Shown here in pieces: positions 5,602-57,337 of a DNA stretch of 64,000 nt; the first letter of the stretch is position 1, and each line of letters opens with the position of its first letter. Origin of the DNA: Guyparkeria halophila (GTDB lineage: Bacteria > Pseudomonadota > Gammaproteobacteria > Halothiobacillales > Halothiobacillaceae); NCBI RefSeq assembly GCF_034479635.1, contig NZ_CP140153.1:1371501-1435500 (forward strand), read 5' to 3'. The notes under the pieces were generated by a model. The model ran no database searches. It saw nothing but the letters and a program-made list of their open reading frames with translations, and was not told the origin of the DNA. A program made the position numbers and the translations under genes.

Positions 5602-5858
5602 GACGTCGTGTCTACCGTGTCGTCGCAAAGAGGGGCGGTCGGGAAAGGGCAAGTGTATGGGATTGCCGGGTGCGGGGAAAACGCGACCCACGATGTCGTC
5701 ACCGCCGGTATGGAATCCGGCACTGGTCAAAAAATGAGCAATTTGCAGGAAAAGGCATACAGTAATGATATGGGATCACGGTTCTTGACCGCCCGCCCGT
5801 CGGTCGGCCTGGATCCAAAGGGGGCTCGGTGTATGGATGTTCCGAGGAAACCGCTGCC

Positions 5859-7229
<1,371 letters not shown>

Positions 7230-8972: not shown

Positions 8973-9017
8973 TTTCATGATCGAAGAAACCCCAACAAGA
9001 AGGTAGAGGTAGTAGCC

Positions 9018-10280
9018 ATGAAAACGCAACTCAAGATGACACTGATCGCTTCCGCGGTCGCCGCCCTGGTCTCCGGCCCGGTGATGGCTTCCGAATCGAA
9101 CGGTGACAATCACAACGGCGGTCATCACCACAATATCCACAAGAAGGTGAAAATCGATATTGATTACGACAAGAACGTGGATGTTGAAAAGAACATCTCT
9201 CGCAACGAGGTCGATCACGTCGATCGCGAGTTGCGTGACATCGTGATCAACGCCTCGGCGGGTGCCTCGGCACACGACACCCAGTTCATCCACGCCAACG
9301 ACGTGCGCAACAAGAAGCTGACCAACAACGCCAGCATCGGCGACAACGTCGGTAACAGCGCCTCGGGCAACATCGGCATGAACGTCGCCGCCGGTGACAC
9401 CAACGTGCAGGACAACGCGGCCGCCCTGGCTGCCGTGGATGCCGGCTTCGTGTTCGGTGAGTCCTACGCCAGTGTGAATGTCGATCAGTCGAACCTGGCG
9501 AACACCACCCGCAACAGCGGCGTGATGAACAACGCCAGCATCGGCCAGAGCGCATTCGCGAATGCCTCGGGCAACATCGGCGTGAACGTCGCCGCCGGCA
9601 CCGGCAACGGCCAGAAGAACACCATGGCGGCTTCGGTCTCCACGGCACGCGTGGCTAATGCCTCCCTGAATAGCAACCAGGAGTCGATCGGCAACAACAT
9701 CCGCAACGAGGGTCGTACCGAGCAGTACAGCGACACGACCCAGGTGCAGCTGGCCGGATTCAGCATGGGCGGCTACTACGGTGGCGGCCATGGCGGCTAC
9801 TCGGGTACCACCAGTGGCTCGATCGATGGCGAACTGGACCAGATCAACAATGTCTACCCGGACATCTGGACTGGCCCGCAGCACACCGGTGGCGTAGCTG
9901 ACGGTCACTTCGACCTCGACAACGGGGACGATGGCACCAACGGCACGCAAGGCGGCCTCGACCTCAACGAGGACGGCGGTGCACTGGCGTTCGGCACCCA
10001 CGACATGACCTACGAAGGTTCCGAAGAAGGGACCCTGGGCTTCCGTGAAGGCGGCAAGATCCTGCTCGGCAGCGTCATGAGCGGCGAAGTCGCGACTACC
10101 CGCTACGTGGTCGTCAACGCCAAGAATGATGCCTCCCTGCTGGGCAACGCGTTCCAGAACGCGTCGGGCAACATCGGCGTGAACGTCGCCTCGGGCACCG
10201 GCAACCTGCAGAGCAACGCGCTCTCCATGGCCGTGGCCTGCAACACCTGCGCCGGTGGCAATGGTGGTGGTACCGAATAA
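9018..10280 (+). CDS. fapC: FapC-like major functional amyloid subunit
   Basis: 420 residues with a clean signal peptide (cleavage near VMA-SES, residue 24). A His- and Lys-rich stretch at 32-43 follows. Three repeats share NAS...SGNIGVNVAAGTGN: R1 about 102-139, R2 about 170-208, R3 about 369-406, separated by a short linker and a long Gly/Tyr/Asp-rich linker (209-368). A C-terminal CNTC (Cys 408 and 411) matches the CxxC described for Pseudomonas FapB/FapC. The three-repeat layout with variable linkers is the hallmark of FapC, the main fibril protein of biofilm amyloid. Preceded by AGAGG at 9005-9009; two stem-loops follow the stop, which may keep this gene's expression above that of downstream genes. 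Confidence 0.85.
   Translation: MKTQLKMTLIASAVAALVSGPVMASESNGDNHNGGHHHNIHKKVKIDIDYDKNVDVEKNISRNEVDHVDRELRDIVINASAGASAHDTQFIHANDVRNKKLTNNASIGDNVGNSASGNIGMNVAAGDTNVQDNAAALAAVDAGFVFGESYASVNVDQSNLANTTRNSGVMNNASIGQSAFANASGNIGVNVAAGTGNGQKNTMAASVSTARVANASLNSNQESIGNNIRNEGRTEQYSDTTQVQLAGFSMGGYYGGGHGGYSGTTSGSIDGELDQINNVYPDIWTGPQHTGGVADGHFDLDNGDDGTNGTQGGLDLNEDGGALAFGTHDMTYEGSEEGTLGFREGGKILLGSVMSGEVATTRYVVVNAKNDASLLGNAFQNASGNIGVNVASGTGNLQSNALSMAVACNTCAGGNGGGTE
9321..9434 (+). repeat. FapC amyloid repeat R1
   Basis: Codons 102-139 of fapC. Core SGNIGMNVAAGDTNVQDN; shares NASIG and GNIG(V/M)NVA(A/S)G with R2 and R3. Asn/Gln spacing is conserved. Confidence 0.8.
9525..9641 (+). repeat. FapC amyloid repeat R2
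   Basis: Codons 170-208 of fapC, core SGNIGVNVAAGTGNGQKN. Separated from R1 by about 30 residues. Confidence 0.8.
10122..10235 (+). repeat. FapC amyloid repeat R3
   Basis: Codons 369-406 of fapC, core SGNIGVNVASGTGNLQSN, directly followed by the C-terminal CxxC. Separated from R2 by a linker of about 160 residues. Confidence 0.8.
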
Positions 10281-10410: not shown

Positions 10411-11169
10411 GTGCTGGCATCGTCGATCACGCAACGCATTCCCGAACCCATCCCGGTAGGTCGTCGGTTGGGATGGGTAGCGATGGTGGCCACGGCGCTG
10501 GTCGCGATGAGCGTGTCGCCGGCCCAGGCCGCCGACATTCGGTTTGCCGGGATCCTGCCGCACGGCCAGATGATGGAAAAGCCGGTGGAAAGCCTGCTTG
10601 AGCGGCGTTATCGCCACGTCGTGCGCCAGCAATTCGATTTCTCCTGTGGCGCAGCGGCGCTCGCCACCCTGCTGAAGCATGGCTATGGCCTCAATCTGGA
10701 CGAGGCAACGGTACTGGCCGGGATGTGGGGGGTCTCCGACCCCGAACAGGTGCGTACCCGCGGATTTTCGCTGCTGGAGATGAAGCATTACCTCGAAAAA
10801 CTGGGCTACCGCGGACGGGGCTACGAGATCGATCTCTCCCGTCTGGGGCGAATCAATGTGCCCACGATCGTGTTGATGGATGTCAACGGGTACCAGCATT
10901 TCGTGGTGCTCAAGACGGTGTCGGACGGTTGGGTACACGTTGCCGATCCGGCATTGGGCAACAAACGTTATTCGGTCGACGAGTTCATCGAGACCTGGCC
11001 GTCCCGCACGGTGTTCGCGGTGATCGGGCCAGGCTTCGATCGGCAGACCGTGCTGCTGGATCGCACCGACATCCCCAGCAGCGGTGCTTTGCATCGGCGC
11101 TCGGGCTCGGGGGCGATACCGACGGCCGATTTGCTCGATTTTGGTTTCACGCATGCCGATCTCTTCTGA
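10411..11169 (+). CDS. fapD: FapD-like C39-family cysteine peptidase
   Basis: 252 residues from GTG 10411 (CAGGGAG at 10396-10402). A signal peptide ends near AQA-ADI (residue 40). The C39 peptidase domain covers about 60-205: catalytic Cys79 in QQFDFSCGAAALATLL with the preceding Gln as oxyanion-hole residue, His163 in NGYQHFVVL and Asp179 in HVADPALG. C39 enzymes usually cleave double-Gly leader peptides in bacteriocin exporters; as a stand-alone periplasmic protein this matches FapD, which is required for secretion or processing of Fap subunits. It is separated from fapC by 130 bases containing two hairpins and from fapE by 27 bases. Confidence 0.85.
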   Translation: MLASSITQRIPEPIPVGRRLGWVAMVATALVAMSVSPAQAADIRFAGILPHGQMMEKPVESLLERRYRHVVRQQFDFSCGAAALATLLKHGYGLNLDEATVLAGMWGVSDPEQVRTRGFSLLEMKHYLEKLGYRGRGYEIDLSRLGRINVPTIVLMDVNGYQHFVVLKTVSDGWVHVADPALGNKRYSVDEFIETWPSRTVFAVIGPGFDRQTVLLDRTDIPSSGALHRRSGSGAIPTADLLDFGFTHADLF

Positions 11170-12009: not shown

Positions 12010-12061
12010 GTCAAATCGATGACAAATGGCAATCGAGGGGATTTCCCCAAGGAGACAAGCC

Positions 12062-13405
12062 ATGGATGTAACGCAGAAGGAAGCAGCGGGGCGTGTGAAT
12101 CGCGTCCCGGTGGGATTGTCGACGCTAACCGTTTGCCTGACCTTGGGCTTGGCGCCGATGACCTGGGCGGCCAACGAGGCCGATAACGTCCAACAATTGC
12201 GCTCCGAGCTGGACGATCTCAAGCAGCGCTATGTCAACGAGGTGCGACGATTGCGCGAGATCGACGCGCGCTTGATGGCGGTGCAGACACGCCTGTCCGA
12301 GGCGGGGGTTGCCCCGGAGGGTGACCTCGAAACCACGCCAGAGAGTGGCGCCCAGGCCACCATGAGCGGTGACGCGGCCGATGAGACCGCGCGCACCGCT
12401 CCAACCGCTGAAGACAAGCGTGAGGCGACGCGGCGCAGCGTCGATGACTTCCTGCAGCAGGAACACGTGGCCTTCGATCGGCCGCTGGTGATCGAGGCCG
12501 GCTTCGAGTACAGCCGATATGACCGCACCCAGTTGACGCTCAACGGCTTTCTGGCCCTCGATGCGATCTTCCTGGGCAATATCGCGGTCGACAACGTTGC
12601 CTCCGACACCTTCAAGTACACGCTCGCCGCCCGATACGGGCTGACACCGCGCTGGAACATCGGCATTTCGGCGCCGTTCATTCAGCGCTATACCACCTAT
12701 CAGAAAGGCGGTGCCGGCGGTTCGGCCGCGGCGTTTGCCGAGGTGGATCAGACCAGTGACCTCGCGATCGGTGACACCACGGTCAACCTCAGTTATCGGC
12801 TGCTTCCGGAAACGGCCAGTCGGCCCGACGTCGTGCTGACCGGTAGCGTGATCGCGCCGACGGGCCGTGAACCCTATGGCGTCGACTGGCGAGTGATCGA
12901 GACGGGCGAGGATGCCGACGGCAACTCCTTCGTCCGTTTTGCGGTGCCTGAAGAACAGGCCACCGGCAACGGTCTTTGGGGTGTCGGTGCGTCGGTCTCG
13001 GCGGTCAAGACGCTCGATCCGGCACTGCTGTTCGCCAACTTCGGCTACACGCACTACATTTCGCGCAGTTTTGACGATCTCAACAACGACCCCGATACCG
13101 TCAATCCCGGCGAAGTGAGCCTCGGCGGCAGCTGGAACTGGGGCTTGGGCCTGGCATTCGCGCTGAACGATCGCGCCAGCCTGTCGATGTCGTACTCGCA
13201 GCAGATCAACGGTAAGGCCCGCACCAAGTACGAGGGGGAAGAGTGGGTCGATCTGATCGGCAGTGACGCCAATTCCGCCATGTTCAATCTCGGTCTTACC
13301 TACGCCCTGGGCAAGAAGACCACCCTGGTAACGACCCTCGGTGTCGGCCTGACACCGGATGCGCCGGACTTCACTCTGGGTATCCGCATCCCTTACGCGC
13401 TCTGA
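12062..13405 (+). CDS. fapF: FapF-like outer-membrane amyloid exporter (coiled coil plus beta-barrel)
   Basis: 447 residues from ATG 12062, preceded by AAGGAG at 12049-12054; an in-frame ATG at 12026 lacks such a site. Signal peptide to about residue 37 (TWAA). Residues 42-80 form a heptad-rich coiled coil (NVQQLRSELDDLKQRY), followed by an acidic linker and helix (118-135), then alternating hydrophobic strands from about 143 to the end (final IRIPYAL), typical of an outer-membrane barrel. FapF is a trimeric barrel whose N-terminal coiled coil gates the pore and which secretes FapA, FapB and FapC. Last gene of the operon, followed by a terminator. Confidence 0.82.
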   Translation: MDVTQKEAAGRVNRVPVGLSTLTVCLTLGLAPMTWAANEADNVQQLRSELDDLKQRYVNEVRRLREIDARLMAVQTRLSEAGVAPEGDLETTPESGAQATMSGDAADETARTAPTAEDKREATRRSVDDFLQQEHVAFDRPLVIEAGFEYSRYDRTQLTLNGFLALDAIFLGNIAVDNVASDTFKYTLAARYGLTPRWNIGISAPFIQRYTTYQKGGAGGSAAAFAEVDQTSDLAIGDTTVNLSYRLLPETASRPDVVLTGSVIAPTGREPYGVDWRVIETGEDADGNSFVRFAVPEEQATGNGLWGVGASVSAVKTLDPALLFANFGYTHYISRSFDDLNNDPDTVNPGEVSLGGSWNWGLGLAFALNDRASLSMSYSQQINGKARTKYEGEEWVDLIGSDANSAMFNLGLTYALGKKTTLVTTLGVGLTPDAPDFTLGIRIPYAL

Positions 13406-36143: not shown

Positions 36144-38513
36144 TCAGCCCGCCGAACGTTTCTTCAACTCCTCAAGCCGCTTGAGAGCAGCCGTGGCGCC
36201 CTCTTCCTGCAGCTCGGCTTCGATCATGTCAAAGCTCTCCCGGTCACCCACATCAAGGAAAGCCTCGGCCAATTCCACCCTGGTGTCGATGTTGGCTTCA
36301 TCGTCGCCAGCCGATGAGGCTTCCTTGGCCGTGGCCTCGGATGCCGCCTCTGACTCGACCGGCTCGTCAGCCGCCGGAGTCTCGCCCAGATCCAGGTCCA
36401 TGCCCTCGTCCTGATCGGACGACGCTTCTGGACGGTCGGGTTCCCCTGCCGGCTCGTAACCCGAGAGATCCAGATCGAGCGGCTCGGGCTCGCCCGCCTC
36501 GCTGTCCGGTGTTTCAACGCTGGCCACGGGTGCTTCGTTTTCCGGCAATTCGAGCTCGCCGGATTCCTTCGCGTGGTCTGCCGGCGCCTCCCTGACCGGG
36601 GTCTCCAGCGCGAAGGAATCGTCGAATTCCATCGACTCGTCTTCCACCGCGCTGGTGTCCGGCTCGGGCGTGGCGAGCATGTCGTCGAGATCATCGTCCC
36701 AGTCGGCATCGGCAGGCGCTTGTGGCTGGTTGGCCTCCTGATCGCCCGCCGCATCCGACGCCACTGATACGTCGTCTGCAGCCGTGGTCGCATCCGACGA
36801 GGCATCGGACTCGTCCGTCTCGGCCATCGGTGTGAACGCGTCGTCCTGCGGCTGTGATCCGTCGGCACTCTCGCCGGCATCGATGCCCTTGAGGCGGTTC
36901 AGTGCCGCCTGAAGGCCGCTGTGCCCCGGATGCTCGGCGAGGCTGTCCTGCAGCAGTTCCACCGCCTGGTGAGTCAGATTGAACGACTCGAGCACTCGCG
37001 CCTCTTCCAGCGCCATTTCCGGGTTCATCGGATCGTCCATGCCACTGGCCGGTGCGGGCGTTCCACTGGCCGGCTCGGACGTCGATTCCTGCCGCGTGCT
37101 TTCCGACTCCGCGTAAGCCATCCCGGATGCCGCGGTGGCTGCCGCGGCGGGACCGGCCACGGTCGATGCAGCAGTGCTTGTCGGCGCTGGTTCGACGATC
37201 GGCTCGTGATCAACCGATCGCTTGCTCGAGGCATCGGCGGTGACCGGCATCGGGACGCCCGCTTCCTCGTCGCGACGATTGCGACGCAGCGCGAGTGCAA
37301 TCAGCAAGGCGATGATCACCAGTCCCAATGCGCCGGTCAGGTACTTGCCCCACTCCATCCAGAAATTACCGGCCGAGCGCTCGGCGGCTGCCAGCTCGGC
37401 GCGGGACTGTTCGATGACATCCTGCAATTCGGCGATCTGTGCATCCCGCTCGTCAACGGCGACCTTGACCGTATCGATCTGATCCTTGAGAGCCCGAAGC
37501 TGATCGGTCAGTGCCTCGTTCTCCGCGCGAACCGACTCGACCTCTTCCTGATCCAGCGCGGCCTCTCGATCGGTCTGCTGGGTGGCCGATGGCTGCGTGC
37601 CGTCGGCGATCGCGGCGAGTGGTTGCTCGCGGGTGAGGTCACCAAAGCCGCCCAGGTTGGCGGGAGCAGCGGCGGTTTGCTCGCCCCCTGCTTCCGGTCC
37701 CAGGAGTTCCAGCGCCGGCAGTCGCTCGATCGCGGTTGCCGTATCCGACCCTGAGCCATCGGTCTCGGCTTGGTCGCTGCCGGTGGCCGACGCACCGCTG
37801 TCCGGTACCCGAAGGCGCGCCCCGGCCATCAAGGCATTGCCGTTGCCGTTGGCGAATGCCTGCGGATTGGCATCAATGATCGCCTGCATCATGGGACGAA
37901 CATCGGCCCCGTCGGCGACGTAGTCGCGGGCGATTTCGTAAAGCGTGTCGCCGCTTTGGACGTCACGCGTTCCGTCGAGGGAAACGTCCTGGGCCGGTTC
38001 GACGCGTTGCCAGGCGGAGGTGCCAGGCGACGAGCGCGAGGGGGATCGGGGCGCGGAGACAGCGGCCGCCGCCTGGTTGGCTGCGGTCGCTTCGCCGGCT
38101 TGCGCTTGCTGGCCCGAGCCCATCGATGGCGGATCGAGCAGCAGGTTGTACTCGCGGATCATCCGCCCCTGCGGGGAATCGATCTCAAGCAAGATGCTCA
38201 GGATGGGGTCACGAATCGGACGCTTGGAGCCAATCAGGACGTAGTCCTGGCCCCGGTCCGACTCGATGCGGAACGTGAGATTGCCCGTGATGTTTTCCAG
38301 CGGGACACCCGCCTCTCGGTAGAACGAGGGCGGGGCCAACTTCACGGTGATCTCGTCGAGTGGCTCGTCGCTGGAGCGCGCCAGCGGCACTCGCACATCG
38401 AGGGGTTGACTCAAGTACGACTGCACCCGGGCCTCGCCCAGGGTGGCGGCCTGGCTGATCAACGGGGTCCCGGCGCCCAGAATCCCCGCAATCACCAAAC
38501 TCAACTTCCGCAT
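36144..38513 (-). CDS. fimV: FimV-family peptidoglycan-binding polar protein
   Basis: 789 residues from ATG 38513 (AAGGAG eight bases upstream). Signal peptide to about 22 (ISQAA), conserved FimV N-terminal domain to about 140, LysM at about 190-240 (VQSGDTLYEIARDY), a coiled coil near 320-385, one transmembrane helix at about 393-412 (GALGLVIIALLIALAL), an acidic repetitive region, and the FimV C-terminal cap (ELAEAFLDVGDRESFDMI). FimV organises the cell pole and type IV pili in Pseudomonas. The leuCDB-asd-fimV order is typical of gammaproteobacteria. Confidence 0.93.
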   Translation of the reverse strand: MRKLSLVIAGILGAGTPLISQAATLGEARVQSYLSQPLDVRVPLARSSDEPLDEITVKLAPPSFYREAGVPLENITGNLTFRIESDRGQDYVLIGSKRPIRDPILSILLEIDSPQGRMIREYNLLLDPPSMGSGQQAQAGEATAANQAAAAVSAPRSPSRSSPGTSAWQRVEPAQDVSLDGTRDVQSGDTLYEIARDYVADGADVRPMMQAIIDANPQAFANGNGNALMAGARLRVPDSGASATGSDQAETDGSGSDTATAIERLPALELLGPEAGGEQTAAAPANLGGFGDLTREQPLAAIADGTQPSATQQTDREAALDQEEVESVRAENEALTDQLRALKDQIDTVKVAVDERDAQIAELQDVIEQSRAELAAAERSAGNFWMEWGKYLTGALGLVIIALLIALALRRNRRDEEAGVPMPVTADASSKRSVDHEPIVEPAPTSTAASTVAGPAAAATAASGMAYAESESTRQESTSEPASGTPAPASGMDDPMNPEMALEEARVLESFNLTHQAVELLQDSLAEHPGHSGLQAALNRLKGIDAGESADGSQPQDDAFTPMAETDESDASSDATTAADDVSVASDAAGDQEANQPQAPADADWDDDLDDMLATPEPDTSAVEDESMEFDDSFALETPVREAPADHAKESGELELPENEAPVASVETPDSEAGEPEPLDLDLSGYEPAGEPDRPEASSDQDEGMDLDLGETPAADEPVESEAASEATAKEASSAGDDEANIDTRVELAEAFLDVGDRESFDMIEAELQEEGATAALKRLEELKKRSAG

Positions 38514-38614
38514 GTCACTCACTCCTTGCTCGTGCCGGTGGGCCGGGCCTCAATGCCCGACTGACGTTCCGGCGCCTTCCGTTAGCCCCATTTCGAGCCC
38601 GATTGTGCCACAGA

Positions 38615-49946: not shown

Positions 49947-52646
49947 TCAGCGCTTGTCCAACGGTGTGGGGCGATGGAGGAGAAAGCCCTGGATGTAATC
50001 GACCCCCATCTCGGTCACCTGTCGGTACTGGTCCTCGGTTTCCACCCACTCGGCCACGGTCTGTGCGCCCATGACGCGGGATACCTGGACGATGGCGGAG
50101 ACGATGACCGCCGCCACGGGGTCGTGTGACAGGTCTTCGACCAGTCGCCCGTCGATCTTGACGATGTCCGGGTTGAGGCGCCGCAGGTACTCAAACGAAA
50201 GAAAACCGCCGCCGAAGTCGTCCAGGGCAAACCGGCAACCGATGCGGCGCATCGCCCCGATCAATCGCTCGGCTTGATCCAGGTTGATGATTGCTGCCGT
50301 TTCGGTGATCTCGAAGACCACCCGGGCCGGGTCCACGCTCGAGTCGCCAAGCTCCTCGCGGATGAAGTCCAGCATCTCGGGCTCCTGCACCGAGTGCGCC
50401 GAGAGGTTGATGCTCAATGTGCCGCTATCCGTTGGCTGTCGAGCGAGCCAGCGGCAACTCTGGCGAATCACCCAGCGATCGATGTCACCCATGGCATGAT
50501 GTTTCTCGGCGATCTCGATGTATTCACTGGGAAATCGCAGCCGCCCGTTGGCATCGGTCACGCGCAGGAGCATCTCGTGAATCGTCGGGAGGCCCGCCTT
50601 CATCGGGGCAATACGCTGGGCAGCGAGATCCAGCCGGTCCTCGGCGATCGCCGCGCGCAAGGCGTTGAAGCGTTCGATCTGCTGCTCGCGCTCCAGCAAC
50701 TCGGTGTCCTCGCCCGAGAACTGCACCACCCGGTCGCCGCCCAGCCGTTGAGCGCTCTGGCATGCACGCTCGGCATCTTCCAACCGGCGCGAGGCCAGCA
50801 GGTCGTCGCTGTCGATCCGGGTCACGCCGACACTGGCCTTGAGCCGCAGGTGTTCGTGCTCGTCCGGCAGCCGGAAGGCGTGGATGATTTCGAGCACGTC
50901 ACGGGCGACCAGCACGCAGGTATCGCGGCTGGACAGCGGCATCCAGATGGCGAATTCGTCGACCCCCATGCGTGCAAGCACCGCATCCGACGGCAATTCC
51001 AGCGAGAAATGGCTCGCCAGCGAGGCGAGGATGCGGTCACCCAACTCGCGGCTGCCGATTTCATTGAGCAGCCGAAATTCGTCCAGATCCGTCCAGATCA
51101 GGCAACTGGCGTGGATTGGCTCGTTGCGGGGTGCCTTGCCGGGCATCGCCCGGGAGAGGAATTCCTCCATGGCTTCCCGATTAAGGACCCCGGTCAACCG
51201 GTCGTGCGTGGCGCGATAGGTCAGCAGGGCATTGGCCGAGCGCAGGTCAGTGACATCCAGTATCGACATGAGCAACTGGGTGTCGCCTTCCGCCTCCAGC
51301 CGACTGAGCTTGAGGTTGACGTCGAAACGTTGATTATCACGCTCGATCACGCCATCGACCGAACGCGTTTCACGCGTCTCCACCCGTTCGACCAGGTCGC
51401 CGAACGCGCACTGCGCCGATAACCCCTCGATCTGTAGATTGAAGGCCTCACAGAAGGGCCGCCCGATCAGTTCCCCGTCGAACTCGGGGCGGGCAAATCC
51501 CTCGACCGCCCGGTTGGTGAGCAGGATGTGTCCCGAGGCGTCGGTGAGCACCGCGCCGGTGTGCAGGCCGGAGAAGGCACGGCGGAGCCGGCGTTTTGCT
51601 GCGCCCAGTCGTTTAGCGGCGCGCCGCGCCTGCCAGGCGAACAAGGCCAGCACGGCGGCCAGGATCAGCACCAGGTAATGCCAGAAGTGCCGCAGCAGGG
51701 AGCCGGGCGAGATCGGGTCAGGCAGCCATTTGTCACGCAAACGATCGACGATCGAGTAATCCAGAGGCGTGCGCCATCCGGCGATACGCGCCTGCTCGGC
51801 GGCCGGTGCGTCGGCGGGCATCGCGATCAATTGACGGGCAACGCGGGTCGCGAGCCCGTCAGGGGCCTGGCCGGTAGCGGCAAACGGCCATTCAGGGACC
51901 AACGGTGTATTGCTGGGATACGGAAACCCCTGGCGCTCCGCCGTCCCGACCGGAACCAGTGGACTGTCGGGGTAGGCGTCCAGGTAGCGTTGAAAGAAGC
52001 TCGAGCGCACCACCCCGGCATGCGCCCGGCCATCGAGCACGGCATCCACGACGGCGGCCAATGGCAATCCGGTGAATATCGGCGTGATCTGGTATTCCAC
52101 ATCCAGCCCGGCATCCTCCAGCGCCTGCATACCGAGCAGCCAGCCACCCAGCGCATTCGGACTGGTCCCGGCCACCCGGGCACCCACCAGATCACCCAGT
52201 TCCTCAAAGCCAGCGCCCTGCCGGGTAAAGATCACCGCACCGAACTGTTCCAGTCGCTGACCATTGCCCTTGACCACCAGGGTCGCCAACGGCCAGATGG
52301 AGTCGAGCCGGGAGAGTTCGGAAAACTGCAGCGATTGCGTCAGGACGAAATCAAGCCGCCCTTCAACAAACGCATTGCGCAACTGGGAAAGGAACAGGGG
52401 ACGGATGACGAAGCGATAGCCCGGGTTGCGCTCGCTCAGGTAGTCCGCGGTGGACTGCCAACGGCTCACCGCATCATCCTTGCCGGCGTACGCGAGCACA
52501 CCGATATGGATCGGCGTTGGCGCGGCATTCGGGCCCGTCTGTGCCTGGGCCGGGCTGACCGCCGAGGCCAGCATAAGGGCGAGTAGCGCAGACGCGATCC
52601 ATCGAACAGCGATGACAGTGGCGAAAGCGGCTGTCTGTCGCGTCAT
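49947..52646 (-). CDS. PhnD-like/PAS/GGDEF/EAL membrane c-di-GMP protein, copy 1
   Basis: 899 residues from ATG 52646; an ATG at 52679 would add 11 residues before the signal peptide. Signal peptide, then a PhnD-type periplasmic binding domain (about 40-310), transmembrane helix near 325-345 (YLVLILAAVLALFAW), PAS-like region (360-480), GGDEF domain with degenerate signature MGVDEF, and EAL domain with EMLLR, NLS, EITET, DDFGGG, KIDG and AEWVE all present. The GGDEF is probably inactive as a cyclase and may bind GTP; the EAL keeps metal and catalytic residues and is likely an active c-di-GMP phosphodiesterase. Paralogue of the next gene; ligand unknown. Confidence 0.9.
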   Translation of the reverse strand: MTRQTAAFATVIAVRWIASALLALMLASAVSPAQAQTGPNAAPTPIHIGVLAYAGKDDAVSRWQSTADYLSERNPGYRFVIRPLFLSQLRNAFVEGRLDFVLTQSLQFSELSRLDSIWPLATLVVKGNGQRLEQFGAVIFTRQGAGFEELGDLVGARVAGTSPNALGGWLLGMQALEDAGLDVEYQITPIFTGLPLAAVVDAVLDGRAHAGVVRSSFFQRYLDAYPDSPLVPVGTAERQGFPYPSNTPLVPEWPFAATGQAPDGLATRVARQLIAMPADAPAAEQARIAGWRTPLDYSIVDRLRDKWLPDPISPGSLLRHFWHYLVLILAAVLALFAWQARRAAKRLGAAKRRLRRAFSGLHTGAVLTDASGHILLTNRAVEGFARPEFDGELIGRPFCEAFNLQIEGLSAQCAFGDLVERVETRETRSVDGVIERDNQRFDVNLKLSRLEAEGDTQLLMSILDVTDLRSANALLTYRATHDRLTGVLNREAMEEFLSRAMPGKAPRNEPIHASCLIWTDLDEFRLLNEIGSRELGDRILASLASHFSLELPSDAVLARMGVDEFAIWMPLSSRDTCVLVARDVLEIIHAFRLPDEHEHLRLKASVGVTRIDSDDLLASRRLEDAERACQSAQRLGGDRVVQFSGEDTELLEREQQIERFNALRAAIAEDRLDLAAQRIAPMKAGLPTIHEMLLRVTDANGRLRFPSEYIEIAEKHHAMGDIDRWVIRQSCRWLARQPTDSGTLSINLSAHSVQEPEMLDFIREELGDSSVDPARVVFEITETAAIINLDQAERLIGAMRRIGCRFALDDFGGGFLSFEYLRRLNPDIVKIDGRLVEDLSHDPVAAVIVSAIVQVSRVMGAQTVAEWVETEDQYRQVTEMGVDYIQGFLLHRPTPLDKR

Positions 52647-52812
52647 GTCCACTGCCCAATCCGTGCCGGATCGCGGCATGTCATCGTCACCATCAACGTC
52701 CCTTCGTTATCCAGCGTCAATGCAGAACCATCGCGCTCTTGGCGATCGGCAGCCAAAATGGCCCGGTTTGCGTGCCCTCGATATCCGCCCGTTGACCGCG
52801 TGGCCAACGGCG

Positions 52813-55686
52813 TCAGTCGGTCAGGGCGTGGCGTTCCAGGGCAAGTCGTTCCACCAGGGGTTCCGGCCTGTGCAGCAGGTAGCCCTGCGCAAAGTCCACC
52901 CCGATGCGCTCGAGTTGCGCCAGTGTCGCCGGGGTTTCCACCCACTCGCCCACCGTACGAGCTCCCATGACACGCGCCACGTCGTGGATGGATTCGACGA
53001 TCACGGCTGCAACGCGGTCATGTTCCAGGTCGCGGACCAGTTTGCCGTCGATCTTGACGATGTCGGGTTTCAGTCGGCGCAGGAATTCGAACGAGATCAG
53101 GCCACCGCCGAAGTCATCCAGTGCCACCAGGCAACCGAGCTCGCGTAGCGAGGCTATCAGTTCGGCCGCCTGATCGAAATTCGCGATGGCCGCCGTCTCG
53201 GTGATCTCGAAGCACAACCAGGTCGGATCGACGCCGTGACGATGCAACTCGTCCCGGACAAACCCGACCAGTTCACCGTCTTTCATCGACTGACCCGACA
53301 GGTTGATGGTCAATCGCGCCGGTGGCGCGGCGCCGGCCACCAGATGATCGCTCAGCCCCTGCAGCGTGCGGCGCACCACCCAGCGGTCGATTTGCGGCAT
53401 GTAGTTGAATCGTTCCGCGAGCTCGATCAATGGGGCTGGCGACCCCAGCTGTCCATCCTCTCCCGCCAGGCGCAGCAACACTTCCAGGCGCACGCCGTCG
53501 GTTTCGGCGGCGCCAATGGCGTGGATTTCCTGCGCATGCAGCACGAAACGGTCCTGCTCGACCGCCTCCTTGAGACGATTGAGTTCGGCGAAATCGGTCT
53601 GGCGCAAGGTCCGCTCGGCACCACTTTCCTCGAACATGACCAGACGGTTGCCGCCGAGTTTCTGCGCGGTCACGCAGGCGGATTCCGCCTCCTCGACGAC
53701 GGTGGCCGCGTTGAAGCCCCCACCGGACGCCAACGCGCGGACACCGACGCTGGCCGAGGTGCGCAGCGCCTGGTCGTCACCTTCAAGGCGGAATTCGCGG
53801 ATCGCCTGGAGTATTCGTTCCGGCCAGCCATCGCCGGCCGAGGATGACAGGTAGATACCGAATTCGTCCCCGCCGAGGCGTCCGATCGGCGTATTGGGCG
53901 GCAACATCACCCGCAGGTAGCCCGCCAGACGGCGGACCAGTTCGTCGCCCATCCGGTGTGAGCCCCCCTCGTTGACCAGGCGGAAATGGTCCAGATCCAC
54001 CCAGAGCAGCATGCCGCCCTCCTCGCCTTGCTTCGAGTCAGCGGACGCCATGCGCGACTCGACTTGCTCGAGGAAGTGCCGCCGCGTCAGCAGGCCGGTC
54101 AACTCGTCGTGCGTGGCTCGATAGGCCAGCTGACGACTGGTCTCGTCGAGCTCCGTGATGTCCATCATCGAGATGACCAGCCGCTGCACCTCGCCGTGAT
54201 CGCCGACGTCGTCCATCCGGGCGGCCGTCAGATTGAGTACCCGGCGGGGATAGCCATGCGCGAGGATCACCGAGTATTCCACCCAGCGGCGAGTGGCGAG
54301 CTGCTCGATCATGCCGGCGAGCGAAAAGTCGTGCGTGTCGTGACGAAACATCAACGCGAACACGTCGGTCAATCGCTGCCCCATGGCATCGCCCGGCTGT
54401 CTATCGTCGGGCAGCAGTCGCTCGGCCGAGGGGTTGAGAAACTGGATGCGTCCCTCCCCGTCAAGCGTCACGACCGCGTCGTGCATCGCGGTTAGGGCGG
54501 CCCGGTGCTCGCGTTCTCGACGGGCCAGGAGACGGCGGGCATGCCACTGCTGCCAGAGCAGCAGGGACAACAGCGCACTCAGGCCAACGGGTATTACCCA
54601 CCAGTACGCGCGCAACCAGTCGACCACAGTCATCGGTGGAGTGAGCCAACGGTCGGCCAGCACCTCCAGATCGCCGTAATCAACCGGTTCCGACCAACCG
54701 GCCAGATTGGCCGCACGCATCGCAGGGGAATCGACAGGCATCGACAGCAGCGTCGAACGGACCTGTTCGCGCAACGTCGGGTCGGCCCGCGTCGTCGACG
54801 CCAGTGGCCATTGCGGCACCAGTCGGGTGGAAAGCGCGTGCGGATAACCCGGTTCACTGACACGATTGAGCACGCTGAAGGCATCCGCGGCGTAGCGTCC
54901 GGCCTCGATCTCCCGCGTGAGCACATCCGCCCGGACGATACCGGCATCCGCTCGGCCAGCGGCCACCGCGCCGAGCACGTTGGCCATCGGCAAACCGACG
55001 TACAGCGGCAGGATGTCGTCATCCATCGACAGCCCGGCCCGCTCGATCTCCTCGGCCCCGAGGATCCATGCCCCCAGCGCATTGGGTGCCACGCCCGCGA
55101 CGATCGCCCCTTCAAGGTCGGCCAGGTCGCCGATCTCCTCGCGCTCGGCCAGCCGCACGATCACTGACCCGAAGCGGTTGCTCGGGCTGCCCGCTCCGTC
55201 AACCACCCGGGTAGCGAGGGCCTCGAGATCGTAATCGGCCCGCAACTGGACGAATTGGAGTGGCTGGAGGTGCACGAAGTGCAATTCGTCCTGCCGGACG
55301 GCACGCGCCACCTCCTGCAGGTACAGCGGCCGGATCTCGAAACGGGCCCCTTCAATGCGGTCACTGAGATAATCGGCGGTCGGGTTCCAGCGCGCCTTCG
55401 CTTCTTCCTTGCTGGTGATCGTGAGTACGCCGATGGTGATCAGTCGATCCTCGCTGGCCCAGGCCTGGGCCTGGACCGGGGATTGCCACGCGGCCAGCAG
55501 GATGAGGCCGAGCAGCAGGCCTTGCACCAGAGCGATTCCGGCCCGGCTGGAGGGGATACCGACAGCAAAAAGGCGGGCCATGGCCATTGCCACGACCCGC
55601 CTGAGGAAAGCTCCTTCCCTAGTCGGTCTGCGCGCCTTCATGACGCCGGTTACTCCGCGGTTTGCCACTCGCTGCATGCCAGACAT
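52813..55686 (-). CDS. PhnD-like/PAS/GGDEF/EAL membrane c-di-GMP protein, copy 2
   Basis: 957 residues; ATGs at 55677 and 55641 are alternative starts, the former with AAGGGA at good spacing. Signal or membrane anchor near 50-73, PhnD-like domain (about 80-345), transmembrane helix near 360-385, PAS-like region with VVTLDGEGRIQFLNPSAE, intact GGDEF (RLGGDEFGIYL) and EAL with EVLLR, NLS, EITET, DDFGGG, KIDG and EWVE. May be bifunctional. Both copies share order, length and many stretches (ALDDFGGG, PDIVKIDG, FLLHRP or YLLHRP), so they arose by tandem duplication. Lies 87 bases downstream of argG. Confidence 0.92.
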   Translation of the reverse strand: MSGMQRVANRGVTGVMKARRPTREGAFLRRVVAMAMARLFAVGIPSSRAGIALVQGLLLGLILLAAWQSPVQAQAWASEDRLITIGVLTITSKEEAKARWNPTADYLSDRIEGARFEIRPLYLQEVARAVRQDELHFVHLQPLQFVQLRADYDLEALATRVVDGAGSPSNRFGSVIVRLAEREEIGDLADLEGAIVAGVAPNALGAWILGAEEIERAGLSMDDDILPLYVGLPMANVLGAVAAGRADAGIVRADVLTREIEAGRYAADAFSVLNRVSEPGYPHALSTRLVPQWPLASTTRADPTLREQVRSTLLSMPVDSPAMRAANLAGWSEPVDYGDLEVLADRWLTPPMTVVDWLRAYWWVIPVGLSALLSLLLWQQWHARRLLARREREHRAALTAMHDAVVTLDGEGRIQFLNPSAERLLPDDRQPGDAMGQRLTDVFALMFRHDTHDFSLAGMIEQLATRRWVEYSVILAHGYPRRVLNLTAARMDDVGDHGEVQRLVISMMDITELDETSRQLAYRATHDELTGLLTRRHFLEQVESRMASADSKQGEEGGMLLWVDLDHFRLVNEGGSHRMGDELVRRLAGYLRVMLPPNTPIGRLGGDEFGIYLSSSAGDGWPERILQAIREFRLEGDDQALRTSASVGVRALASGGGFNAATVVEEAESACVTAQKLGGNRLVMFEESGAERTLRQTDFAELNRLKEAVEQDRFVLHAQEIHAIGAAETDGVRLEVLLRLAGEDGQLGSPAPLIELAERFNYMPQIDRWVVRRTLQGLSDHLVAGAAPPARLTINLSGQSMKDGELVGFVRDELHRHGVDPTWLCFEITETAAIANFDQAAELIASLRELGCLVALDDFGGGLISFEFLRRLKPDIVKIDGKLVRDLEHDRVAAVIVESIHDVARVMGARTVGEWVETPATLAQLERIGVDFAQGYLLHRPEPLVERLALERHALTD

Positions 55687-55773
55687 CCCTTGCCTGTGAA
55701 GCCGACCCTTTCGGGGGTCGGGTCGTCCCTGTCGCGCAGGGGCTCACTTTCGCGCCCCGCCATTGGCGAGCGT
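55687..55773 (-). promoter_or_regulatory. Structured leader between argG and the GGDEF/EAL gene
   Basis: Two hairpins are seen on the minus strand: CCCTG-CGCGA-CAGGG and CCGACCC-CCGAA-AGGGTCGG (about 55701-55741). Neither is followed by a T run, so they are not clear terminators; they could form a structured 5' leader. No known c-di-GMP riboswitch consensus is recognisable. Confidence 0.4.
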
Positions 55774-57009
55774 TCAGCCGCGCCGGCCGGCCTTCGCGCT
55801 GATACGCAGGCGCAGGGCGTTGAGCTTGATGAAGCCCTCGGCATCGCGCTGATCGTAGGCACCGGCGTCATCCTCGAACGTCGCGATCGCCGGATCGAAC
55901 AGGCTGTTGTCGGACTGGCGACCGGCCACGATCACGTTGCCCTTGTACAGGCGCAGGCGCACATCACCGTTGACGTTTGCCTGGGTCGCGTCGATGGCCT
56001 TCTGCAACATCTCGCGCTCGGGGGCGAACCAGTACCCGTTGTACACCAACTCGGCGTACTTGGGCATCAGTTCGTCCTTCATGTGGGCCTCGCCACGGTC
56101 GAGCGTCAGCGACTCGAGTGCGCGGCGCGCCTTGAGCATAATGGTGCCGCCCGGGGTCTCGTAGCAGCCCCGCGACTTCATGCCGACGTAGCGGTTCTCG
56201 ACCATGTCGAGTCGACCGATGCCATTCGCGCCGCCCAGCTGGTTGAGCTTGAGCAGCAACTCGGCCGGCGAGAGCTTCTCGCCGTCGATGGAGACCGGGT
56301 CGCCCTTCTCGAAACCGATGACGATTTCGGTGGCCTCGTCGGGGGCACGCTCGGGGCTGACCGACCAGCGCCACATCTCCTCTTCCGGCTCCCACCACGG
56401 ATCCTCGAGGTTACCGCCCTCGTAGGAGATGTGCAGCAGGTTGGCATCCATGGAGTATGGCGATTTCTTGCCGGCGGCCGCGAAGTCGACCGGGATGTCG
56501 CGGCTTTCCGCGTAGTTCATCAGCTTCTCGCGGGAGTTGAGGTCCCACTCGCGCCACGGGGCGATTACCTTGATCTCCGGGTTGAGCGCGTAGGCATTGA
56601 GCTCGAAGCGCACCTGGTCATTACCCTTGCCGGTGGCGCCATGGGCGACGGCGTCCGCACCGGTCTCGCGGGCGATATCAACCAGACGCTTGGCGATCAG
56701 CGGGCGGGCGATGGAGGTGCCCAGCAGGTACTCGCCCTCGTAGATGGCGTTGGCACGGAACATCGGGAAGACGTAATCGCGAACGAAGGTCTCGCGCAGG
56801 TCGTCGATGTAGATTTCCTTGACGCCCATCTTCTCGGCCTTTTCACGCGCCGGGTCGAGCTCCTCGCCCTGCCCCAGGTCCGCGGTGAAGGTCACTACCT
56901 CGCAGTCGTAGGTCTCTTCCAGCCACTTGAGGATCACCGAGGTGTCCAGGCCGCCGGAATAGGCCAGTACCACCTTGCCGAGCTTCTTGGGGGCCGCGGG
57001 ATTGCTCAT
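55774..57009 (-). CDS. argG: ArgG, argininosuccinate synthase
   Basis: 411 residues from ATG 57009 (AGGAG seven bases upstream). ATP pyrophosphatase loop [13 protein letters not shown] near residue 15, [13 protein letters not shown] and the segment [12 protein letters not shown] fit the type I enzyme. Joins citrulline and aspartate in arginine synthesis. Divergent from aceE across about 330 bases, which show no other gene. Confidence 0.97.
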
Positions 57010-57337
57010 CAGAACTCCTGAATTCGATTTGTGTTTGCGATGTGTTTGGCACGTAATCGGGCCATTATATAGACACCGCTGCGCCATGACAGGGCATAGG
57101 GTTTTTCAATCCCCCGATTACGCCACGCCGAGCGGCGTCAATACGGCACTTCCCATTCGCTTTCCGGCCGACATCACGCGCGTCAAACGGCTTCGGCATG
57201 CGCTCGAACATAGGAAAACTTGCCGGAATCGCGCATAATGAGGCGCAAATTTTGGTCCGGTGCGACCATCGAAACCCTGCCGTGATGCGCTTTGGCGCGG
57301 TTTCGGACGCACCCAACGACAGCTTTGAGGAGTGCTT

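Follow-up and report, generated by a model that had tools for sequence, protein, structure and literature searches.

Tandem TtrS-type sensor GGDEF–EAL proteins of Guyparkeria halophila: two probable phosphodiesterases whose GGDEF domains are under contrasting constraint

A stretch of 64,000 nucleotides of the 2.45 Mb genome of Guyparkeria halophila, a sulfur-oxidising bacterium of the Halothiobacillaceae (NCBI RefSeq assembly GCF_034479635.1, contig NZ_CP140153.1, positions 1,371,501 to 1,435,500 of the forward strand; the whole stretch is referred to as the window) contains two adjacent genes, here called A and B, each of which encodes a periplasmic sensor domain fused to GGDEF and EAL domains of cyclic di-GMP (c-di-GMP) turnover. 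The pair raises the question of what two such similar proteins do side by side when only one of them retains the GGDEF motif. A preliminary description of the locus took A for a pure phosphodiesterase and B for a possibly bifunctional enzyme, the two together comparing a phosphate-like or phosphonate-like ligand. The analysis reported here makes it fairly probable that A and B are instead two independent, membrane-bound, ligand-regulated phosphodiesterases, each with a TtrS-type sensor that likely responds to a sulfur oxyanion and a GGDEF domain that is regulatory rather than a cyclase. It is less the type of enzyme that appears to set the two proteins apart than the sequence of their sensors (about 41% identity) and the constraint on their dead GGDEF domains, which is very tight in A and loose in B. 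This contrast in conservation is the part that we consider worth following.

Both open reading frames (ORFs) lie on the minus strand and span exactly positions 49947-55686 of the window, with B upstream of A and a gap of 133 bp between them. The proteins are paralogues, with 40% identity over 887 columns. Pfam assigns a Phosphonate-bd (PF12974), a GGDEF and an EAL domain to each (Table 1), and hydropathy places one hydrophobic stretch between the sensor and the cytoplasmic domains; it additionally marks an N-terminal signal region and one stretch within a folded domain in both proteins. ORFs, Pfam, hydropathy and identity thus agree on the tandem of PhnD-type sensor, membrane helix and GGDEF–EAL that was first described, and the motif is split as claimed, with ARMGVDEF in A and GRLGGDEF in B. 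A PAS domain between the membrane and the GGDEF domain had been overlooked. In B it is matched by two PAS profiles, and in A, where the profile match is weak, the predicted fold is PAS-like. The full-length predicted model of A has a predicted template modelling score of 0.46, and for this reason its domain arrangement was left unused.

The nearest solved structure to the cytoplasmic half is RbdA (4.5e-72 and 1.1e-85), against which the residue columns were read. The comparison covers 27 copies (nine A, eight B and ten from Halothiobacillus). They represent 20 genomes out of the 27 searched in the family; those set aside were G004, which gave only a partial match, G011, and five from genus g3, whose matches were more distant or lacking. 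The positions that contact the phosphates of guanosine triphosphate (GTP) are taken to be Lys332, Lys442 and Arg446 in PleD numbering. All 27 copies have a Gly at the Arg446 position; at the Lys332 position 26 have Arg and one has His. At the Lys442 position a Lys is found in three copies, exactly the three B copies that read GDDEF, and in neither window protein; in B of the window the GTP-phosphate Lys/Arg positions are occupied by Gln and Gly. The ND residues read NE, and the I-site is absent, throughout the 27. The second Gly of the motif is replaced by Val in every A copy (9/9), is retained in five of the eight B copies with Asp in the other three, and is Val (seven), Ala (two) or Ile (one) in Halothiobacillus. 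A therefore has neither the motif nor the residues of an active cyclase, and B has the motif only. Nine loci outside the family, of equal fused architecture, keep the GTP-site Lys (9/9) and Arg (8/9, with Lys in one), which indicates that the decay belongs to the A/B/Halothiobacillus family; the copy from G011 has GGDEF and the Lys, yet Gly replaces the Arg. Among the 42 GGDEF matches of the genome, B ranks 36th (86.0 bits) and A 38th (68.5 bits).

In the EAL domains the signature tripeptide is EML (A) or EVL (B), its glutamate being kept, and the catalytic columns (glutamates, Asn, Asp pair, Lys and Gln) are intact in 25 of the 27 copies. The other two end before reaching them, L055 because it runs off its contig and L057 because its ORF ends early. 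The substituted GTP-site residues, the low rank within the genome and the intact EAL domains make both proteins poor cyclase and good phosphodiesterase candidates, and A and B are probably phosphodiesterases only. For A this was proposed from the outset, and it is the most likely reading of its residues (GVDEF, loss of the GTP site, EAL intact). The bifunctional role suggested for B took its appeal from the presence of GGDEF where A has GVDEF, but B is missing the GTP-phosphate Lys and Arg just as A is, three of the eight B copies read GDDEF, and the domain is the least conserved of B (see below). LapD and FimX also occur among the profile and structure matches, and the EAL domains could in principle be non-hydrolysing c-di-GMP receptors of that style. 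This is most improbable, as the degenerate EAL site of LapD and FimX is not seen in A or B and the catalytic residues are kept in each of the 25 copies that extend to them.

RbdA (PA0861) shares with A and B the EAL residues and the order PAS–GGDEF–EAL, though for A the PAS is seen only in the predicted fold. It differs in keeping the GTP-site Lys and Arg, all three positions being substituted in both window proteins. RbdA and RmcA, whose GGDEF domains are intact, are likewise described as working chiefly as phosphodiesterases, and GTP raises the phosphodiesterase activity of RbdA (PMC10874727).

Mean identity of the domains, with a column bootstrap, was compared across six Guyparkeria species in which both genes are intact. 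The GGDEF domain is the most conserved of A at 0.897 (bootstrap 0.867-0.928), against 0.790 for the sensor, 0.745 for PAS and 0.782 for EAL, and its interval overlaps that of no other A domain. In B it is the lowest at 0.680 (0.639-0.730), compared with 0.769 for the sensor, 0.693 for PAS and 0.773 for EAL, although the GGDEF and PAS intervals of B overlap. The sensor and EAL domains change at similar rates in both proteins. The ratio of nonsynonymous to synonymous substitution (dN/dS) over five pairs is 0.02-0.06 for the GGDEF domain of A and 0.11-0.25 for that of B. The synonymous rate itself is of the same order in every domain, from 0.36 to 1.63 and in part close to saturation, which places the constraint on the protein. 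A low mutation rate or an overlapping antisense ORF as the source of the conservation in A was ruled out on the same match in synonymous rate. Over wider sets of rows the values are 0.85 for A (all nine) and 0.65 for B (seven, the fragment L039_B having been dropped). An old origin of this conservation was considered, but the GGDEF domain of Halothiobacillus (seven full rows), at 0.674, is not above EAL at 0.698; since it is unremarkable there, the strong constraint is a property of Guyparkeria A.

As the GVDEF domain is the most conserved part of A, this dead GGDEF domain seems to serve a firmly retained function, whether allosteric or in docking, and the GGDEF motif of B seems to be no marker of a kept cyclase. 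A precedent is found in Shewanella PdeB, in which a cyclase-inactive GGDEF domain is described as being kept as an activating module of the EAL phosphodiesterase; PdeB retains GTP binding and docks with FimV/HubP (PMC9061725). The proposed likeness to A is the cyclase-dead GGDEF domain kept beside EAL, which in A may serve allosteric nucleotide binding or as a docking surface. It is possible, and we suggest it tentatively, that the dead GVDEF domain of Guyparkeria A is a key control surface, for partner docking or nucleotide sensing, that cannot vary, while the GGDEF domain of B drifts with its motif kept or regained. If so, phosphodiesterases that sense sulfur anions would be told apart by the partners of their dead domains, and motif integrity would mislead about function. 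The six species with both paralogues would be a clean case of such a misleading motif, as it is the one carrying the motif that drifts, and the one lacking it that is retained. As a separate observation, the window also encodes a FimV/HubP-type protein at 36144-38522 on the minus strand (FimV_N 9.6e-29).

The nature of the ligand is approached through the sensor. When the isolated sensor domains were compared with NCBIfam, the best model was NF040750, the tetrathionate sensor TtrS (A 1.6e-35, B 1.2e-31), which also matches the sensor domain of a third paralogue in the genome (1.3e-31) and of one Halothiobacillus copy (4.4e-43). The phosphate/phosphite/phosphonate model is weaker (B 2.7e-8, A 1.2e-5). 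Among solved structures PtxB is the closest in sequence (6.9e-19), and the AlphaFold2 model of the B sensor domain (predicted local distance difference test 93.7) has the PtxB fold with a Z score of 25.4 and 3.6 Å over 252 residues; XAC2383 (pdb 5ub3) ties with it at Z 25.1. A and B thus share the two-lobed PF12974 fold with PtxB and PhnD, which differ in being soluble transporter parts. PtxB is reported to hold phosphite through an STS-H motif, formed by Ser124, Thr125, Ser126 and His155 of the P. stutzeri protein (PMC5700983). This motif is missing from both window proteins: in its columns B has Ala203-Leu204-Gly205 and Met234, and A has Ala176-Leu177-Gly178 and Leu207. The STS triplet occurs in none of the 147 related domains that were aligned together with two PtxB chains, a set whose members are not independent, since it contains fragments and some genomes are represented by duplicate records. 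In 142 of the 147 an Arg (Arg225 of A, Arg252 of B) stands where PtxB has a Ser, which by our own count we take to correspond to S178 of the T. erythraeum protein. S178 of that protein is reported to touch the ligand His (PMC5700983). The argument about the binding pocket is drawn from the alignment.

These features count against the phosphate-like or phosphonate-like ligand first proposed, to which the family name Phosphonate-bd and the best solved fold, PtxB, had pointed. TtrS of S. baltica is described as answering tetrathionate and ThsS of S. halifaxensis as answering thiosulfate, and the PhnD likeness of their sensors was described by their authors (PMC5408782). The PhnD-like sensor is the feature that A and B have in common with TtrS and ThsS, TtrS being the best curated match to their periplasmic domain. 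Unlike these histidine kinases, A and B carry a PAS–GGDEF–EAL output with no kinase in Pfam, and their full-length scores on the TtrS model (119.3 bits for A and 111.7 for B) are far below the curated cut-off of 750 bits.

An association with SoxZ emerged from a sample of 229 genomes of the class, which include kin of the query (G000, the genome containing the window, and G001). The sensor-domain type, called at E <= 1e-25 whatever its output domain, is carried by 52 of these genomes and SoxZ by 128. SoxZ is present in 46 of the 52 genomes with the sensor type versus 82 of the 177 without (odds ratio 8.9, p 2.5e-8), a figure that treats genomes as independent, leaves phylogeny uncorrected and has G000 and G001 among its counts. 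For comparison, phnG of the C-P lyase, present in six of the 229 genomes, two of them with the sensor domain, shows no association (p 0.62), with little power. Among the best 80 loci of a longer list of scan matches, a SoxZ-like ORF occurs at eight, against an expectation of 0.55 to 1.4 at a density of 2 to 5 copies per 3 Mb, and at all eight the sensor has a kinase H-box motif. Sorted by motif, the 82 sensor ORFs of these best 80 loci comprise 17 with GGDEF and EAL, three with GGDEF alone, 42 with a kinase H-box and 20 with none of these. In four further genomes, picked by eye, a sensor gene and SoxZ lie close together, and two of these were scanned (L174, 3867-9080, and L175, 6740-11685). 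In both, soxY, soxZ and a SoxA/TsdA-type cytochrome gene have as direct neighbours the genes for a TtrS-type sensor kinase and for a response regulator of the LuxR type. SoxY exceeds its curated cut-off in both, as does SoxA in L175, the sole locus scanned for it. The kinase and response regulator of these two loci are candidate regulators of thiosulfate oxidation.

The treatment of genomes in the SoxZ count is one of several points that weigh against a sulfur-sensing phosphodiesterase pair. The eight sox-linked loci encode kinases only 31-35% identical to the query domain, and five of them are from Sedimenticola. A and B themselves adjoin not sox genes but the genes that we take, by eye, to be argG (upstream of B) and gloA (after A), and the one SoxZ match of the genome is at 503 kb with the tandem at 1,421 kb, about 0.9 Mb apart. 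No protein in the 229 genomes exceeds the TtrS cut-off, so a characterised TtrS was never compared directly, and the best match to the TtrS model (L153) is without the near-invariant Arg. The His of the STS-H motif, although absent from A and B, is present in 64 of the 147 aligned domains, and its loss is therefore not general. On the enzymatic side, B keeps its GGDEF motif, and the loss of Lys and Arg is a predicted, sequence-level argument for inactivity. We accordingly infer a sulfur oxyanion as the ligand with moderate confidence.

Sensor phosphodiesterases of the same kind could respond instead to arsenate, arsenite, selenate or an argG-linked metabolite such as arginine. The fold is shared with ArrX (arsenate, and crystallised with sulfate too; Z 24.6) and AioX (arsenite; Z 20.3), and argG adjoins the sensor gene on its upstream side in 18 of 18 loci tested (52813-57087 in the window). 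The adjacency can, however, be mere inherited gene order, and the sensor domain fits TtrS far better than the models for phosphorus oxyanions or selenate. Arginine sensors, RmcA among them, use a binding-protein family other than that of A and B, which counts against arginine. Arginine-linked control of c-di-GMP does exist, as RmcA (PA0575) is reported to be a transmembrane GGDEF–EAL phosphodiesterase that recognizes periplasmic L-arginine (PMC7825114); besides its ligand, it differs from A and B in a GGDEF domain that binds GTP. On this evidence a ligand other than a sulfur oxyanion is considered unlikely.

The preferred mechanism, that of two sulfur oxyanion-regulated phosphodiesterases, would begin with the binding of a small anion, most likely tetrathionate or thiosulfate, in the cleft of the two-lobed TtrS-type periplasmic domain. 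From the anatomy of the proteins, closure of the lobes would be transmitted by one membrane helix through PAS to a GGDEF–EAL unit of the RbdA kind. The residues suggest that the GGDEF domain would serve as a regulatory module without synthesis and that EAL alone would hydrolyse c-di-GMP. If this is correct, one protein would tie c-di-GMP breakdown directly to the perception of sulfur oxyanions, from which these bacteria draw their energy, and neither a kinase nor a separate binding protein would be needed between the two. The parts are largely known ones, A and B joining a sensor of the TtrS type to a phosphodiesterase of the RbdA type. XAC2383–XAC2382 of Xanthomonas citri likewise ties a PhnD-like receptor to c-di-GMP turnover, reportedly as a periplasmic receptor and a separate diguanylate cyclase, whereas A and B are each a single fused ORF with EAL output. 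The fused PhnD-type sensor–GGDEF–EAL architecture was not found in the literature searched, which leaves out most subscription journals, and it may be in print elsewhere.

The distribution of the genes bears on whether A and B work as a unit. A tree was built from 27 rows after removal of five outgroups and of three Halothiobacillus rows that were partial. In it A, B and the copies from Halothiobacillus each form one clade (100/100), and A groups with Halothiobacillus (98/96), with the remaining outgroups on long branches. The duplication is therefore likely to predate the split of the genera, B then having been lost in Halothiobacillus. A recent duplication in this strain was ruled out by the 40% identity and by the same grouping. 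Nine other Guyparkeria loci were compared, of which six have both genes, L045 and L046 only A, and L047 only B; the last three are from draft assemblies, 85-94% complete, whose contigs run through the site. No remnant of the missing gene was found at the single-copy loci, where matches are at E 0.18 or worse apart from the first 32 codons of gene A itself, and decayed remnants were accordingly rejected. As genomes with only A and only B exist, the proteins seem not to need each other, which speaks against a pair that compares a ligand as a unit. Together with the absence of STS-H and the state of the GGDEF domain of B, this leaves a bifunctional B that compares a phosphate-like or phosphonate-like ligand with A as a very slight possibility. 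Gene B of G001 (L039, 9072-12125) contains one in-frame TAG, from assembly error or decay. No relative was confirmed on viral contigs, the 112 plasmid records at E 1e-40 include none spanning 80% of the query, and a PHROGs search gave nothing useful.

Table 1. Features of genes A and B, with positions in the window
Feature	Position	Strand	Evidence
Gene A: TtrS/PhnD-type sensor–membrane helix–PAS–GGDEF (GVDEF)–EAL, 910 amino acids	49947..52679	-	ORF, Pfam, predicted model
A periplasmic substrate-binding-type domain, residues 51-318	51726..52529	-	PF12974 2.2e-34; NF040750 TtrS 1.6e-35, domain alone
A Arg225, near-invariant Arg of TtrS-type domain	52005..52007	-	Ser in PtxB column; Arg in 142/147 aligned domains
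A membrane helix, residues 328-354	51618..51698	-	Hydropathy; predicted model helix 325-371
A PAS-like domain, about residues 372-475	51255..51566	-	Predicted secondary structure; profile only 0.15
A degenerate GGDEF domain, best conserved domain of A across Guyparkeria species	50736..51212	-	PF00990 7.1e-18; residue table
A GVDEF motif, residues 572-576	50952..50966	-	
A EAL domain, intact catalytic columns	49968..50666	-	PF00563 1.2e-57
Gene B: TtrS/PhnD-type sensor–membrane helix–PAS–GGDEF–EAL, 957 amino acids	52813..55686	-	ORF, Pfam
B periplasmic substrate-binding-type domain, residues 77-347	54646..55458	-	PF12974 5.2e-38; NF040750 1.2e-31; AlphaFold2 pLDDT 93.7; PtxB Z 25.4
B Arg252, equivalent Arg column of TtrS-type domain	54931..54933	-	
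B membrane helix, residues 360-378	54553..54609	-	Hydropathy
B PAS domain, residues 395-512	54151..54504	-	PAS_9 9.8e-6; PAS 4.3e-5
B GGDEF domain, motif present, GTP-phosphate Lys/Arg absent; least conserved of four B domains compared	53644..54117	-	PF00990 8.6e-23
B GGDEF motif, residues 605-609	53860..53874	-	
B EAL domain, intact catalytic columns	52864..53580	-	PF00563 6.3e-58

Elsewhere in the window, a VpsR-domain sigma-54 activator is encoded at 5829-7229 on the plus strand (PF20161 4.5e-8), followed by genes that include those for a C39 peptidase (10411-11169) and a porin-like protein (12026-13405, plus strand), an arrangement consistent with a Fap amyloid operon. The suggestion that A and B feed this regulator and amyloid finds no evidence, both being some 37-43 kb away in a genome with 42 GGDEF and 20 EAL matches. 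A scan for promoters and terminators gave results at about chance level. The third TtrS-type sensor of the genome lies at L007 (6300-8978, minus strand; C1 1556299-1558977) and overlaps an upstream gene for an NMT1-like binding protein (8975-10024). Besides the sensor and PAS domains it has a GGDEF domain scoring 157 bits and no EAL match. This GGDEF domain reads SGDEF and keeps the GTP-site Lys and Arg and the RxxD motif, and the protein may be a cyclase that forms the counterpart to A and B.

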